A stretch of 6,232 nt of DNA from a bacterium ADurb.Bin374 (GTDB lineage Bacteria > Riflebacteria > Ozemobacteria > Ozemobacterales > Ozemobacteraceae), in assembly GCA_002068715.1 (NCBI GenBank), contig MWAR01000147.1:1-6232 (forward strand), written 5' to 3'. The translations under genes and the position numbers were made by a program. How positions within the stretch are numbered: the first letter of the stretch is position 1; each line of letters starts with the position of its first letter. Below the pieces are notes generated by a model, which saw only the letters and a program-made list of their open reading frames with translations, made no database searches and had not been told where the DNA came from. Positions 1 through 6,232 of this stretch are shown one piece after another.

Positions 1-3000
1 CGTGGAATGTTGCAGCACGGGCGATATCTGCACGCTGGGAACGGGCATCGAGTCTCACCTTCTGGGCCGAAACCGCGGCGGCGCGATTCCGCAATCGGAT
101 CGAGATGCGGCTCCCGCCGTCCGCATCGGCACCGTTCGATCAGGATCTGCTCGGCAGGATCGGAGCGAAAGCCCTGCGCACGCCGATGTCCCGTGGGCTT
201 GCCAGCCCCTCAATCTGGCTGTTCGCGCTGGCCGGGCGTCCGACGGATGCCCCCGTGTCCTGCCCGGGCGAGGGACTCCAGACACGCTTCACCCGCCTCA
301 TCGGATCGATCATGCATGAGATAGACCGTCGCAACCGGTTCGAGCCGGGGCGACCCCGGCCGGCGGCGTGGAAACAGTCGCTGGACCGGCTGTTCGGATT
401 CGGCGTTTCCCCCGAGCTGTTCGACCTTCCCTCCCGCGGGCGAGCATTTCCTGTAATTTTTCAGAATGGCTATCACATTTGTGTCTGGGATTTCATTCAG
501 GCCGACGGCCGGTTCGTCGGGGTGTTTCTGATGCTTCTCCCCTCGGGCCCGGGGGACGCGGATACGGCACGACGCCTCTGCTTCGCCAACTGGCGTTTCA
601 TAGCCCGAAACACCGCTCTCGAACCAGTTTTCATTCCCTTTCCCCTCGGCCCCGCCAAGTCAGGCAAGATTCTCGTCCGGCGCGGTTCGCCGTTGCAGAA
701 CCAGTCAGAGGTCCGCACATTCATCCGGAAGAAAGCCTCGGAAATCAGCCTCAGACGCCCGGAAGACCCGGATATTCTTTCCCCGTCTGATATCGGCATC
801 TGGTATGTATCCCGGCAGGTATACGACATGTCCGGGGAAATCCGTCTTCCCGACCGGGATCTCCACCGGGTATTCGAGGCCGGAAACCGCCATCTCGCCT
901 GCTGGAACTCTCTCGACACCATGGCAGGGGGAGTCGGTCTCCTGATCGGTCCGCTGCCGGCCGCAACGGATGAGGTTTCCAATCATGCCAGAGCCATGCC
1001 TGTCGTTGTCTGGGGGCTCCTGTGGCTGCTTCTGCTGGCCCGCAGCGCATTTTCAGGCTCTCTTCCTTCGTTCGGCATTCGTTCACAGCTGGCTTTCTGG
1101 TTTTTGTGCCTGGCGTCCGTTCCCCTCATCATCGCACTTGGTGAGACAGGAAAGCTGCTTGGAGATCTCCGCGGGAATCTCCTGCGCGAATACGATCAGG
1201 AACTCAACCAGGCACTGCAGGAGCTCGAAAACGAGGACACGAGGCTGACGCGGAGATTTGCCGAGATCTGCAACCGGCTGACGGAAAACGCCTCCAGAAC
1301 CCTCGCTCTCCGGGAGCATCAGCAGGAGAAGCGTCCCGTCGATGCACTCATGAACACCCTCTGGGCAGACCTCTCGGGGCTCGGCATTCCGATACGCAGC
1401 ATGGCGCTTTTCGGGCATGGCAACTTCGTATGGGGCAGGCATGACGCCGCCATTTCCCCCGAATTCGGCATTTCCCTCGTCAATTTCATGCGACCAATGG
1501 CAAACAGGCTGCTCAAGATCCTCTCGCCGGAACTCGAAACCCAGGTTCCCCAGCGGAAAGCCGACGTCATCAGCACCCAGCTCGACCAGCTTGTTTCTCC
1601 CGATGTAGAGCAGCTGACGCAGAAAGACAGGCAGATCGCCGAGACGATGGCTGACAACAAGCGCATGCTGAAGTTTCACCAGTTTCTGAAGCTGGACGGC
1701 AAGACCTGGTTTCTCCTGGTCGTGCTCTGGGAACAGAGTGAGGCCTATGTTCGTCACATCCGGACGCGCATAGGCGACATTGCATCGAAATACTCCGTCG
1801 ATCTCGAAATCACACGACATACAGCCGCCGGCGATATTTCCATCGCCCGATCCGGCAAGCCGCTCCGGGCGCACGAACCGGGCATACGCTCGACACGCCT
1901 GGACCGGATCATCTCGATCCGGAGCACCCGGCTTCCCAGCTTCGTCATGGCGGCATCGAGACCTCTGGACCCCCTTCGGCAGCGTCTTTTCAAGGAAACG
2001 GGACAGGTCATCGCCGGTGTATTCGGAAACCTGCTGCTGATTCTCCTGTCAGGAGGGATTCTCGCCGCCTGGCTGACAACCCCGCTGAGGAAAATGGCGG
2101 CCGCCCTCCGGGAGGTTGCGTCGGGACGGCTTGACAGGCGGCTCTGCCTTAACCGCCCCGATGAACTCGGCCAGGCCGCCGACACCCTCGATGCCATGAC
2201 CGACTGGCTTCGGGAGCGCCATGCCATGAGTCTGTTCGTCAACCCGCAGGTCATGGAGGCCGTTGCATCCGACTCATCGTCTTCCCGAACACCGCAGCGC
2301 CGGAGGATCGTCGCGCTGACATCCGACATCCGGAATTTCACCACGATTTCCGAATCACGCCCTCCCGATGAGGTGTTTTCGGCCTTGAACCGGCATTTCC
2401 GGGCCATGACCCCTGCCATCAAGGATCAGGGAGGCTTCATCGATCGATTCATCGGTGACGCCATCCAGGCGGTTTTCTACGAGGACCCGGCATCCGATGA
2501 GGAACCGCCTGCCGTGCGCGCGCTCCGCGCCGCGCGGACGATGATGCGGGAACATCGGGCGCTTCAGCGAGAACGGGCACAGGCCGGCCTGTTCACCTAC
2601 GAGATCGGCATCGGCCTCGCGTCGGGAGATGCCGTCTGCGGCATTCTGGGCGCCGAGGGAGTTCGTCTCGATCACTCCGTCGTCGGGGAACCCGTCCAGC
2701 GGTCCGCAGACCTCGAAGCCGCCTCGAAGGCAGGCCGGGCGACCCGCATCGTCTGTGATTCCGCGACAGCCGCATCAGCAGGCTCTCCCGGTGATTTCCT
2801 CTTTCTCTCGGGCCATCCGGGCGCGCTCGAAGCAGCCGGCGGCACGTCATCCCGGGATGTCGAGGCGGCAGCATCCGCCTCGGAACGGACGGATCTGCCA
2901 CATCAAGGCACGCTTCCAGGGTTGCCATCTTCATCTCCCGCCGCCACGGCGGCAGAGAAGGAGAACAATACCGCGAAATATATACTTATTTCCATACTCT

Positions 3001-5972
3001 TATTTGCCGCGCTCATGCTCTTCTCGTTTTCCAGGACACTGACCTCCTCGTTCAGGGAGCGCGCGATCGCGCACGAGCAGTCGGAACTCCAGCAGGACCT
3101 CCGGCTCGCCGCCTCCACCGACATTCCCGCCCTGCACATCGCAAATCACCTCCGGATCATCCTTCTGAAAGGCATTTCCGGGAAACCGGATCTGGGCTCG
3201 TCTCCCCGGGACACCTTTTCCCATCTGAGGAAGCGGCTTCGGATGGCGCAGAGGTTTTATCCCACATTGTCATGGAGTCTGATCAGGCACCTGCCCACAC
3301 GCGACCCTGACCGCCATTCGATCTCGCTTCGCAGCACGAAGACCGTCGAATCGCGCGGCATTCCGTTCGCCGGAAAAGCCTCCGAAATGGCAGCCTTGTT
3401 TTCCGCGATGAAGGGGCTGCTGGTTCACGGCGTTCATGACGCACGAACGAGTGCTGCCATTGCCCCGCTGATTCACCGGGCATTTCCGGTGCTCCAGGAC
3501 AAGGCCTACGCCCTTTCTTTCGAGTCATACGGGCATTTCAACCAGTGCGAGGCCTTCGGCGTCAACGGCTTTCTGATGTGGGAACCGATCGTTCCCCCGG
3601 GCTGGTGGGACACATATCAGCATTTGATCGATACCGTTCCCGGCAGCACCAGCCTTCCAGAAGCCTGGTGGCGGGAGATGCGGGGCGGCCTGCTGCTGTT
3701 CCTCCCGCTCGATGCCATGGATGAACCAACAGGCCTTCGGGCGATGACACAGACCATGAAAGAACGCGGCACCCGTCTTGCTTTTCTTCCCCGCGGCGGA
3801 ACGTTGAAAACAGCGATCGGAAGTGAGACCTTCGACATCCGCCTGACGAAGAGCAACGCCGTGATCGCTCGGAAGAAGACGAATCTGGATGCCTTCCCGG
3901 AAATGATCGCCGCCCGGCTGATTCCTTCCCCACCCATCTGGATGGTTCTCCTGGAACGACTTCTTGCATTTTTTTCGTGTTTTCTTTCGATTGCAGCCTT
4001 CTGGTTTGCCTTCGCCGATCGCAGATTCGCAAGCGTGGCGTTGCTGCCAAGAAATATGGTCCCCCTCCTCGCGGGCGCCTTCACCCTGACTCTGCTGCCG
4101 TCGCTGCTAGCTGGCTGGGTGGCCGGCGAACGCAGTTTGATCGAACGGAAGGCGCGCCTCTTCGATGTGACTGCCGACCGACTCGAGACCGTTCTGAGTT
4201 CCATCGACAAGGGAACGAATTGGTATATCGGTCAGAATATGTCCGCCTTCCGGCATCTCTCGGCCCTTCCCGAATTCACAAACCGGCTTCATGCCACGCG
4301 CACCCTGAAAACCAGGCCGGAGCAGGAGGAGGCTCTTGCCGATCTTCTGGACACGTATTATCAGCAGGCGATGAAATACGGGCTGGCCATCGGGAACATG
4401 CAGTTTTTCGGCCCTGGCGGCATCAGCGTTCTCAACGCGGGAAAAGCCTCCGAACACGAATCCTCGATCATGCGCGAGCTCTACGGGAACCTTCACGCCC
4501 AGGCCATGCAACGGCTCTCACCGGCCTTTTTGGCGACCGATGAAAACGGAGACGAAAACAAACGCACGCTGGAGAATCTGAAAGGCGAGGAAATAAAATA
4601 TCTTTTGTTATCGATGCTCTCCGCTTTCGATGTCGCCGCCATGATGTCGGCTCCGGCCCAGTATCAGTTCATCACCTGGGGCCTCAACTCGCACGAGTCC
4701 TTCCGCATCCATATTCCGGATGTCACCGGTCAGCCCCACTATGCCTTTCAGGTGCATCTCGCCGACAACATGCTCCGTCACCAGCAGCTCCGCAACCTGT
4801 ATGAAGACCGGGGGCAACCCGACACGCCACACGTGTCGGTGACCCGCAACAATCCCCGCATAACCCTGCCATTCACGACACTCAGAATACACCTGTCCGA
4901 CCTGGGAAACAGATTCACCGCCGATGTGAATTCCTACCTGGCACACCCGGAAGAAGCCGCTGCGGATCTTCTCGCAGGCGCCTCGCTCATGCCCGTTCAC
5001 ACATTCCTCGAACACGACGGTTCCACCGAGTTTCTGTTATCGCGGACGGGAAACAGCCAGCGTGATCACATCCTGAAAGCCCGCATTCCCTATTCCCCCC
5101 TTCTCGCGAAGCTCGACCGGGAAGCTGCGGCAAGCCGTTTGTTGCTGGCTTTTCTGTTCTTTCTCATGCTGTTCATGTCGTTCCGCACGGCATCCCGATT
5201 CCTGGAACCGGTCCAGGCGTTGAGCCGTGCGGCGGAAGCCATCATGAACGAACGATTCGACACACGGCTTCCCGTGGATCGCCGGGACGAGTTCGGCGAT
5301 CTGGCGGCAGCCTTCAATGCGATGGCGGCAGGGGTTGAAGAGGGGCGGCGCCTTCGCTCCTTCGTTTCCGATTCCGTCCGCACCGCCGCGAGCGACGAGG
5401 CCAGAAGCAAAGCCGCGATGGCCGGGGAAAACAGGTCTGCCGCCATCCTGTTCGTTGCCCCGGCTGGATTCGCCCGGCTGCTTCGGGAACGGTCTCCCGA
5501 GTCGGTGGTCCTGCTGCTGAACCGGTATCTCGCGGTCATGTCGGAGGTGATACGCCGGCATGGCGGTGAGGTCGACAAGTTCATCGGCGAAAAGATCCTG
5601 GCAGTCTTCGATGCAGAAAGGCATGGAACACTCGACGAAGCGACCCGGGCCGCCGCGGGGACAGTGACGGAGATGCTCGATGCCATGCACCAGTTCGGAC
5701 AGGAACTGCCTTGTCCGCTGGGCATCGGCATTGTTGCCGGACCGGTCCTCGCCGGCATCATGGGAGCGCCCGAAGTGCGGCTGGAGTATACGGTCATCGG
5801 CGACACGGTCAACTCGGCCGCCCGCCTCTGCGACCTGGCGGCGAAGGCCGGCGGCGGCACGATCATCGACGGCACCGCGGCGTCTGCCCTGGACGGCAGG
5901 AGCATGTCGCCAGTCGGCGAAATTCTCGTGAAGGGCAAAGCCCGCCACATCGCCGCCTTCCGCCTCGAATGA
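1..5972 (+). CDS. Tandem two-unit transmembrane class III adenylate cyclase (5' end outside window)
   Basis: Predicted inner-membrane enzyme converting ATP to cAMP in response to extracytoplasmic signals. The frame has no stop from base 3 to TGA 5970. The first ATG is at 105 (1,955 residues from there), but neither it nor the ATGs at 189 and 312 has a ribosome binding site, and the frame is open to the left edge, so the gene is treated as 5'-partial. Residues are numbered from 105. Order: module A1 (to 297), membrane helices about 300-316 and 329-346, module B1 (348-634), helix 635-656, HAMP1 (657-706), CHD1 (732-900), Ala/Ser/Pro-rich linker (905-958), helix 959-976, A2 (977-1277), helices about 1284-1303 and 1319-1340, B2 (1341-1678), helix 1679-1693, HAMP2 (1696-1749), CHD2 (1776-1955). 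Each cyclase domain alone lacks essential residues, but together they supply a full set. Family assignment is secure. ATP specificity is inferred from the K1825/T1896 pair. Cofactor, signals and activity are unknown. Confidence 0.9.
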   Translation, partial: WNVAARAISARWERASSLTFWAETAAARFRNRIEMRLPPSASAPFDQDLLGRIGAKALRTPMSRGLASPSIWLFALAGRPTDAPVSCPGEGLQTRFTRLIGSIMHEIDRRNRFEPGRPRPAAWKQSLDRLFGFGVSPELFDLPSRGRAFPVIFQNGYHICVWDFIQADGRFVGVFLMLLPSGPGDADTARRLCFANWRFIARNTALEPVFIPFPLGPAKSGKILVRRGSPLQNQSEVRTFIRKKASEISLRRPEDPDILSPSDIGIWYVSRQVYDMSGEIRLPDRDLHRVFEAGNRHLACWNSLDTMAGGVGLLIGPLPAATDEVSNHARAMPVVVWGLLWLLLLARSAFSGSLPSFGIRSQLAFWFLCLASVPLIIALGETGKLLGDLRGNLLREYDQELNQALQELENEDTRLTRRFAEICNRLTENASRTLALREHQQEKRPVDALMNTLWADLSGLGIPIRSMALFGHGNFVWGRHDAAISPEFGISLVNFMRPMANRLLKILSPELETQVPQRKADVISTQLDQLVSPDVEQLTQKDRQIAETMADNKRMLKFHQFLKLDGKTWFLLVVLWEQSEAYVRHIRTRIGDIASKYSVDLEITRHTAAGDISIARSGKPLRAHEPGIRSTRLDRIISIRSTRLPSFVMAASRPLDPLRQRLFKETGQVIAGVFGNLLLILLSGGILAAWLTTPLRKMAAALREVASGRLDRRLCLNRPDELGQAADTLDAMTDWLRERHAMSLFVNPQVMEAVASDSSSSRTPQRRRIVALTSDIRNFTTISESRPPDEVFSALNRHFRAMTPAIKDQGGFIDRFIGDAIQAVFYEDPASDEEPPAVRALRAARTMMREHRALQRERAQAGLFTYEIGIGLASGDAVCGILGAEGVRLDHSVVGEPVQRSADLEAASKAGRATRIVCDSATAASAGSPGDFLFLSGHPGALEAAGGTSSRDVEAAASASERTDLPHQGTLPGLPSSSPAATAAEKENNTAKYILISILLFAALMLFSFSRTLTSSFRERAIAHEQSELQQDLRLAASTDIPALHIANHLRIILLKGISGKPDLGSSPRDTFSHLRKRLRMAQRFYPTLSWSLIRHLPTRDPDRHSISLRSTKTVESRGIPFAGKASEMAALFSAMKGLLVHGVHDARTSAAIAPLIHRAFPVLQDKAYALSFESYGHFNQCEAFGVNGFLMWEPIVPPGWWDTYQHLIDTVPGSTSLPEAWWREMRGGLLLFLPLDAMDEPTGLRAMTQTMKERGTRLAFLPRGGTLKTAIGSETFDIRLTKSNAVIARKKTNLDAFPEMIAARLIPSPPIWMVLLERLLAFFSCFLSIAAFWFAFADRRFASVALLPRNMVPLLAGAFTLTLLPSLLAGWVAGERSLIERKARLFDVTADRLETVLSSIDKGTNWYIGQNMSAFRHLSALPEFTNRLHATRTLKTRPEQEEALADLLDTYYQQAMKYGLAIGNMQFFGPGGISVLNAGKASEHESSIMRELYGNLHAQAMQRLSPAFLATDENGDENKRTLENLKGEEIKYLLLSMLSAFDVAAMMSAPAQYQFITWGLNSHESFRIHIPDVTGQPHYAFQVHLADNMLRHQQLRNLYEDRGQPDTPHVSVTRNNPRITLPFTTLRIHLSDLGNRFTADVNSYLAHPEEAAADLLAGASLMPVHTFLEHDGSTEFLLSRTGNSQRDHILKARIPYSPLLAKLDREAAASRLLLAFLFFLMLFMSFRTASRFLEPVQALSRAAEAIMNERFDTRLPVDRRDEFGDLAAAFNAMAAGVEEGRRLRSFVSDSVRTAASDEARSKAAMAGENRSAAILFVAPAGFARLLRERSPESVVLLLNRYLAVMSEVIRRHGGEVDKFIGEKILAVFDAERHGTLDEATRAAAGTVTEMLDAMHQFGQELPCPLGIGIVAGPVLAGIMGAPEVRLEYTVIGDTVNSAARLCDLAAKAGGGTIIDGTAASALDGRSMSPVGEILVKGKARHIAAFRLE
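3..2072 (+). other. Unit 1 sensory region: modules A1 and B1 with three visible membrane helices
   Basis: Module A1 (up to residue 297) is followed by a helix near 300-316, a short Arg-containing loop, a helix near 329-346, module B1 (348-634) and a helix at 635-656 leading into HAMP1. The positive-inside rule places A1 and B1 outside the cytoplasmic membrane if a further helix precedes the window. B1 starts with a long charged helix (about 355-395). It then has a strand-turn segment at 432-444 matching 1431-1443 of unit 2, and an LSPEL segment near 473-477 matching LSPAF near 1471-1475. This layout resembles Cache-type extracytoplasmic sensors, but I see no diagnostic ligand motif, so Cache is a guess. 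A1 shares an RAFPV segment (113-117) with 1125-1129 of unit 2 and is otherwise not recognised. Confidence 0.6.
2073..2222 (+). other. HAMP domain 1
   Basis: Residues 657-706 directly follow the membrane helix. They show the HAMP pattern: the helix-1 proline P660, a connector with G674, and the helix-2 DELG signature at 686-689, then a heptad-like helix to about 706. HAMP domains carry signals from periplasmic sensors to output domains as parallel helical bundles. The P-to-E spacing (P660 to E687) is identical in HAMP2 (P1702 to E1729). The short segment after it (711-723, FVNPQVMEAVASD) matches the FV..SV..A segment at 1753-1765 and sits where cyclases carry a transducer element between HAMP and the catalytic domain. 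Confidence 0.85.
2298..2804 (+). other. Cyclase homology domain 1, C1-like (metal-binding half)
   Basis: Class III cyclase fold, residues about 732-900. Both metal-binding aspartates are present: D741 in SDIRNFT (codon 2325) and D785 in FIGDA (codon 2457). The substrate lysine position is R781 (GGFIDRFIGD). The late motif reads VRLDHSVVGEPVQRSADL (853-870) where active homodimeric enzymes read close to VRLDYTVIGDTVNLAARL. The transition-state Asn is therefore Q865, the Arg is D869 and the adenine-site Thr/Asp is S858. The terminal VKGK strand pair is not recognisable. Alone or as a homodimer this domain should be inactive, but it can supply the metal side of a heterodimeric site. Confidence 0.9.
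2817..2978 (+). other. Low-complexity linker joining the two cyclase units
   Basis: Residues 905-958 are rich in Ala, Ser, Pro, Gly and Glu, have no predicted secondary structure of note, and match nothing at the end of CHD2. They replace the last strands of CHD1 and lead straight into the first membrane helix of unit 2. The DNA at the 3' end contains an AAGGAG stretch (2958-2963) followed by markedly AT-rich sequence, which resembles a former gene start (see findings). Confidence 0.6.
2979..5183 (+). other. Unit 2 sensory region: modules A2 and B2 with four membrane helices
   Basis: A helix at 959-976 leaves the cytoplasm, followed by module A2 (977-1277), helices near 1284-1303 and 1319-1340 joined by an Arg-rich loop (DRRF at 1305-1308), module B2 (1341-1678) and a helix at 1679-1693. 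The helix count and charges fit CHD1 and CHD2 both facing the cytoplasm and A2/B2 facing outward. Homology to unit 1 is visible but weak: RAFPV at 1125-1129, an FFGPGG turn at 1434-1439 and LSP at 1471-1473. B2 is about 50 residues longer than B1. The sensor modules have diverged far more than the HAMP and cyclase parts, suggesting the two units sense different things. Ligands are not predictable here. Confidence 0.65.
5190..5351 (+). other. HAMP domain 2
   Basis: Residues 1696-1749 after membrane helix 1679-1693. P1702 begins helix 1 and the DEFG signature at 1728-1731 begins helix 2, with a heptad pattern in the segment around AAFNAMAAGVEEG (1735-1747). The spacing matches HAMP1 exactly from the proline to the glutamate. 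Because both HAMPs sit in one chain next to CHDs that must pair, HAMP1 and HAMP2 probably pack against each other as an intramolecular heterodimer. That packing is inference. Confidence 0.85.
5430..5969 (+). other. Cyclase homology domain 2, C2-like (substrate and transition-state half)
   Basis: Residues about 1776-1955, ending with the gene. It aligns without gaps to CHD1 over 57 residues from the first metal motif to AVF after the second. The first metal Asp is replaced by A1785 (ILFVAPAGF, codon 5457) and the second by E1829 (KFIGEK, codon 5589). Retained are K1825 (substrate lysine), T1896 (adenine-site residue of class IIIb enzymes), N1903 and R1907 (transition state, in VIGDTVNSAARL) and the terminal VKGK at 1942-1945, whose lysine contacts the triphosphate in animal C2. 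It should be inactive as a homodimer but completes CHD1. A Lys/Thr pair favours ATP; guanylyl cyclases use Glu/Cys. Confidence 0.92.
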
Positions 5973-6056: not shown

Positions 6057-6232
6057 ATGGCTTTCTTTTTTTCCGAGCAATCGAATCTCCCGTTGAGAAC
6101 GGCACCCGTTGCCAGGGCGCTCCTTGTTTTGTGTCTATTTTTTGGGGTATTCGCGGGAGCTCCGGCCTGGTCTCGGGATGATTCCGAGATCGACCGTCTC
6201 AAGGCCCGCGCAGAAGAAAGGCCCCAAGATTC
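6057..6232 (+). CDS. Secreted or envelope protein, N-terminal part only
   Basis: The first 58 codons are visible and remain open at the right edge. The protein begins MAFFFSEQSNL, has arginines at 14 and 20, then a hydrophobic core (about 21-36, ALLVLCLFFGVF) and small residues ending in AGAPA before WSRDD, a typical Sec signal peptide with cleavage probably after residue 38. No lipobox cysteine is placed correctly: the only Cys lies inside the core. The mature start, DDSEIDRLKARAEERPQD, is charged and helical and resembles the opening of TPR-repeat or coiled-coil periplasmic proteins, but that is a weak guess from 18 residues. It lies 84 bases after the cyclase stop on the same strand, with its own candidate promoter, so it may be co-transcribed or independent. 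Function is not known. Confidence 0.75.
   Translation, partial: MAFFFSEQSNLPLRTAPVARALLVLCLFFGVFAGAPAWSRDDSEIDRLKARAEERPQD

Follow-up and report, generated by a model that had tools for sequence, protein, structure and literature searches.

Complementary, individually incomplete cyclase domains in a tandem membrane receptor of Riflebacteria point to a bacterial adenylyl cyclase of C1-C2 type

The animal transmembrane adenylyl cyclases AC1-AC9 carry two class III cyclase homology domains (CHDs) in one membrane chain, the first (C1) supplying the metal-binding Asp residues and the second (C2) the Lys, Asn and Arg. Two CHDs also share a chain in soluble adenylyl cyclase (sAC, ADCY10) and sAC-like proteins, and bacterial HAMP-linked class III cyclases combine a membrane sensor, HAMP and a CHD. 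We analysed a 6,232-nucleotide contig (MWAR01000147.1, the window) of the Riflebacteria member ADurb.Bin374, which encodes a tandem cyclase whose two domains, CHD1 and CHD2, lack opposite parts of the catalytic residue set. The protein is very probably a membrane-bound class III adenylyl cyclase built on the C1-C2 plan, with one composite ATP site, which arose by ancestral duplication and reciprocal loss in Riflebacteria; catalysis, the ATP substrate, gating by two sensors and the order of loss and fusion are what we infer from the comparisons below. It shares with AC1-AC9 the division of residues, the order of the two domains and their predicted pairing, but where the animal enzymes have two hexahelical membrane domains it carries HAMP domains and sensors outside the cytoplasm, of dCache-like type in its first half, and it is bacterial. 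At one specificity position the animal enzymes have Asp where the Riflebacteria CHD2 has Thr. By analogy it is taken to work like an animal C1-C2 cyclase; membership of the animal family is not claimed.

The tandem cyclase is one long frame on the + strand (window 3..5972), open to the window's 5' edge. Residues are numbered from the first in-frame ATG at 105 (105..5972, 1955 aa); P0001 is the same frame read from nucleotide 3, and its numbers are higher by 34. Every residue named in the original prediction reads as claimed: CHD1 has D741 and D785 at the metal positions with R781, Q865 and D869 at those of the Lys, Asn and Arg, and CHD2 has A1785 and E1829 in place of the metal Asp, with K1825, T1896, N1903, R1907 and a VKGK motif at 1942. 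The full set (two metal Asp, Lys, Asp/Thr, Asn, Arg) is thus present only in CHD1 and CHD2 taken together. Pfam finds two stretches each of HAMP and Guanylate_cyc (PF00211, 74.3 bits, cut-off 21.9), and the two halves of the protein align to each other (28% identity over 348 aa, E 8e-21).

The reciprocal loss is conserved in the fused relatives. Both protein searches scored only candidates with the most words in common. The CHD2 query gave 219 proteins above threshold, of which the best 120 were examined, and among the matches listed 66 HAMP-plus-cyclase proteins (P0002-P0067) rank ahead of other architectures; the CHD1 query added 15 further proteins (P0122-P0136). The named sources of these relatives are Candidatus Riflebacteria, Ozemobacteraceae, Ozemobacter, Rifleibacterium or simply 'bacterium'. 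Two-CHD proteins number 75, or 74 without P0067, whose CHD1 is cut; the set includes the window protein and its 98% copy, and pairwise identities within it reach down to 0.23 (CHD1) and 0.19 (CHD2). In CHD1 both metal Asp are present in 74/74 and the Asn or Arg in none, with Arg replacing the Lys in 65/74. In CHD2 the Lys, Thr, Asn and Arg are each present in 74/74 and both metal Asp together in 0/74, the first metal Asp surviving once (P0038, with Asn at the second position). Entropy is zero at both CHD1 metal positions and at the four CHD2 positions. The vacated sites vary: those of Asn and Arg in CHD1 exceed 60-63% of columns in variability, and the two metal positions of CHD2 exceed 28-35%. 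All six complementary residues are likewise invariant columns in an alignment of 60 proteins. The two metal positions, the Asn and the Arg are all invariant in 64 comparison CHDs, taken from loci whose titles do not name Riflebacteria. Judged from these alignments, the complementary pattern is more than chance would give. The reciprocal substitutions expected by the original prediction thus recur throughout, and no fused relative among the 74 keeps a full residue set in one domain, the case that would have spoken against it.

The predicted model pairs CHD1 and CHD2 intramolecularly, head to tail, in the C1-C2 arrangement that had been anticipated, and fits AC9 as one body. It also fits human sAC, and PDB 6yii is matched across both CHDs. 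Because the division of residues is the same as in animal C1-C2, a single ATP site at the CHD1-CHD2 interface is the likely arrangement. In the proposed mechanism one chain would comprise two sensor/HAMP/cyclase halves, CHD1 providing both metal-binding Asp and CHD2 the substrate Lys and Thr together with the transition-state Asn and Arg. Head-to-tail pairing would then create one ATP-to-cyclic AMP (cAMP) site and one dead pseudo-site, and therefore neither CHD is expected to function as a homodimer. The single site would receive input from two diverged sensors through the HAMP coils, as the architecture suggests.

The same complementary halves also occur as separate genes. A whole-protein query against genome contigs found no relative; the CHD1 alignment used as query did recover relatives, and several of these loci encode the halves in two neighbouring frames of ~1000 aa each, read in the same direction. 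We therefore read all PF00211 stretches of two genomes, G001 (53 hits, 33 stretches) and G003 (61 hits, 37 stretches), 114 CHDs together; G002 (31 hits) stands outside this count. A pair was called complementary when one CHD had both metal Asp but lacked at least one of Asn/Arg, and its partner had Lys, Thr, Asn and Arg while missing at least one metal Asp; the pairing rule passed over pairs containing a complete domain. All 35 pairs are complementary: 12 fused (among them the 35th, L151, a frame of 2240 aa), 17 split with the metal-only gene first and 6 split in reverse order. The 'obligate intramolecular' pair of the original prediction accordingly holds for the fused members and not in general, as in 23/35 pairs the partners are two adjacent genes. 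The 45 unpaired CHDs comprise 41 complete and four degenerate domains (L096 second frame, L102, L125, L135). Without the pairing rule there are 41 co-directional adjacencies, 40 of them metal-only/Asn-Arg-only and one (L093) complete/Asn-Arg-only. Eight further stretches include reversed split pairs (three in G034, one in G036 and one, beside a cut metal-only frame, in G033), a fused pair with Ser replacing Thr (G010), and, each standing alone, a metal-only frame on a short contig (G035) and a complete domain (G038). Other genomes searched alongside gave mostly complete single domains as best-scoring matches. Split pairs with the Asn/Arg-only gene first were noted at L090, L093, L110, L121, L129, L182 and L184. 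L016 and L017, on contigs titled Candidatus Methylomirabilis, carry, besides a split complementary pair, a complete CHD grouping with L131 of G003 (100/99); the title of this metagenome-assembled genome may be wrong.

Trees place each type of half in one clade. We used 85 HAMP-CHD rows, taken from 173 with a few complete ones added, removed the six catalytic columns, applied LG+C20 PMSF and rooted on the complete rows. The 39 metal-only rows form one clade (98/92), the 38 Asn/Arg-only rows another (99/90), and the 8 complete rows stand separate (100/94), L127 and L131 being the nearest complete rows that come from the same genome. A quick 173-row tree is concordant, with weaker support for the Asn/Arg-only clade (97 and 82). 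In the tree of each half the fused proteins fall into two groups, and split pairs branch both between these and below them. This is explained equally well by two fusions or by a single fusion followed by fission, and the simpler order would be that reciprocal loss preceded fusion. Distances between partners correlate with r 0.78 over 49 pairs (best of 2000 permutations 0.25), a value to which no probability is attached because kinship among rows inflates it, and with r 0.71 for the 23 split pairs alone; nearest neighbours agree between partners in 31/49 pairs. These relations would fit a single ancestral duplication with reciprocal loss in Riflebacteria, retained as co-evolving gene pairs and fused chains. 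The opposing idea, many independent losses, one per protein, might draw on the reversed gene order of 6/23 split pairs and on unrelated two-domain proteins that show reciprocal loss, but each type is one clade spanning fused and split members, which makes repeated loss the most improbable of the readings considered here.

Hydropathy gives seven likely hydrophobic segments in the window frame and one upstream in P0002, placed around large extracytoplasmic regions, and the chain terminates after CHD2. The features (all + strand) are:
996..1142, +, pair of hydrophobic segments ahead of the first dCache-like sensor (aa 298-316, 328-346), from hydropathy
1155..1988, +, first-half sensor, dCache-like (P0001 aa 385-662)
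2007..2063, +, hydrophobic segment (aa 635-653), from hydropathy
2061..2210, +, HAMP 1, approximate limits, from Pfam
2289..2786, +, CHD1, metal-only, with D741 (2325), D785 (2457), R781, Q865 and D869
2973..3029, +, hydrophobic segment at the start of the second half (aa 957-975), from hydropathy
3960..4112, +, two hydrophobic segments (aa 1286-1304, 1318-1336), from hydropathy
4389..5090, +, probable second sensor in the place equivalent to the first dCache-like domain, from the predicted model's secondary structure only
5127..5183, +, hydrophobic segment (aa 1675-1693), from hydropathy
5187..5336, +, HAMP 2, from Pfam
5415..5969, +, CHD2, Asn/Arg-only, with A1785, K1825 (5577), E1829, T1896 (5790), N1903 (5811), R1907 (5823) and VKGK at 1942

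P0002 (2040 aa) is 98% identical to the window protein across the last 300 aa and has 51 extra residues upstream, including, by eye, a hydrophobic stretch. As the frame is open at the 5' edge and P0002 extends 51 aa further, the ATG at 105 is probably not the true start, which would lie upstream of the window. Ahead of the first dCache-like domain the model shows a well-predicted extracytoplasmic alpha/beta region (window ~144-960, P0001 aa 47-320), for which a fold search that barely probed this region matched no fold. Downstream, the first part of the next frame (window 6057-6232) appears by eye to have AGAGGA ahead of it and a signal-peptide-like N-terminus; the frame is cut by the window end. 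No common neighbour was evident by eye in the open frames around L001, L002, L004 and L005.

Several observations weigh against the proposed C1-C2 cyclase. The second metal Asp persists in 31/74 CHD2, and in 9/35 pairs the metal-only CHD retains one of Asn/Arg, so that the loss is partial: Arg in L087, L104, L105, L109, one L117 pair and L119 (fused), Asn in L090, L110 and the other L117 pair. Complementarity is not universal in the phylum, as an incomplete domain has a complete neighbour in L093, and so do CHDs lacking nothing but the second metal Asp in G037 and G039. The model has a predicted template modelling (pTM) score of 0.62 and omits the last 24 aa of CHD2, and AlphaFold2 may bring together whichever two CHDs a chain contains.

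A site composed across two copies of the chain, from CHD1 of one and CHD2 of the other, is conceivable given that split pairs show the halves can be separate chains; the model pairs them within one chain, a less than strict test of oligomeric state, and we consider the inter-chain arrangement unlikely. It is more doubtful still that the pair is a catalytically dead receptor, binding nucleotide or relaying a signal by contact without making cAMP. Both domains are degenerate, and the title of 6yii, a single chain from P. aeruginosa, describes it as an adenylyl cyclase-like ATP-binding protein (the comparison is with its title only), but the complete set of six residues that makes up one composite site is invariant in 74/74 and drift would not spare exactly those. 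Lys with Thr at the specificity positions goes with a preference for ATP; both residues are invariant in CHD2 and make a guanylyl cyclase very unlikely, although 2w01, titled guanylyl cyclase Cya2, is among the closest solved sequences.

The proposed composite adenylyl cyclase differs from each of the known systems compared. sAC and the sAC-like proteins lack transmembrane segments and HAMP, and the sAC-like relatives listed have AAA/TPR regions; Pfam on the window protein gave no AAA or TPR match; HAMP-linked homodimeric cyclases have one CHD per chain, a full residue set and two expected sites per dimer. Heterodimeric soluble guanylyl cyclase and the fungal NeoR/RGC rhodopsin cyclases, compared by description, share a catalytic unit between two chains as the split pairs do, but are eukaryotic guanylyl cyclases. 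Among the matches listed are 95 other proteins, nine with two CHDs; three of these (P0078, P0093, P0121; sAC-like, with AAA/TPR regions) show reciprocal loss, the second CHD of P0084 is complete, and in P0068-P0070 Asn/Arg are present in the first CHD and absent from the second. A passage of PMC9552081 states that fused dimeric class III cyclases are unknown in bacteria, which P0078, P0093, P0121 and the single chain of 6yii (473 aa in the structure, named a transcriptional regulator) qualify as far as that passage goes. Searches of titles and abstract openings, with most subscription journals outside, turned up no bacterial membrane receptor with reciprocal loss, split form or such expansion in the literature on pseudoheterodimeric, heterodimeric and tandem class III cyclases; those on Riflebacteria with cyclase or cAMP likewise gave nothing on the subject.

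Cyclase profile matches occur in 39/39 genomes of the phylum, at 9 to 87 each, a figure that includes complete CHDs and so does not count complementary pairs; the 87 are in G018. Up to 30 isozymes per bacterial strain are cited in a passage of PMC9552081. Domains binding cyclic nucleotide monophosphates give 14 hits in G001 and 19 in G003. Adjacent cyclase genes at L185 (2439-8030, -) and L188 (3369-8913, +) encode one complete CHD and a neighbour lacking the second metal Asp only, which may represent an intermediate stage or be a case of its own. Tentatively, Riflebacteria might possess an extensive network of cyclases that are obligate heterodimers (the two genomes counted have 17 and 18 pairs). 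With a separate sensor on each half, every receptor would be a two-input gate, unfused halves might swap partners, and stages of the presumed animal route would stand side by side: complete singles, complete domains beside metal-ligand loss (L185, L188), split pairs and fused chains.

Such domains should not each be counted in annotation as a separate working cyclase. Riflebacteria would offer a family of bacterial membrane proteins that divide the catalytic residues as C1 and C2 do, present in fused, split and complete forms in the same genomes, and comparison of close relatives makes testable how fusion affects regulation and how two sensors are read jointly.
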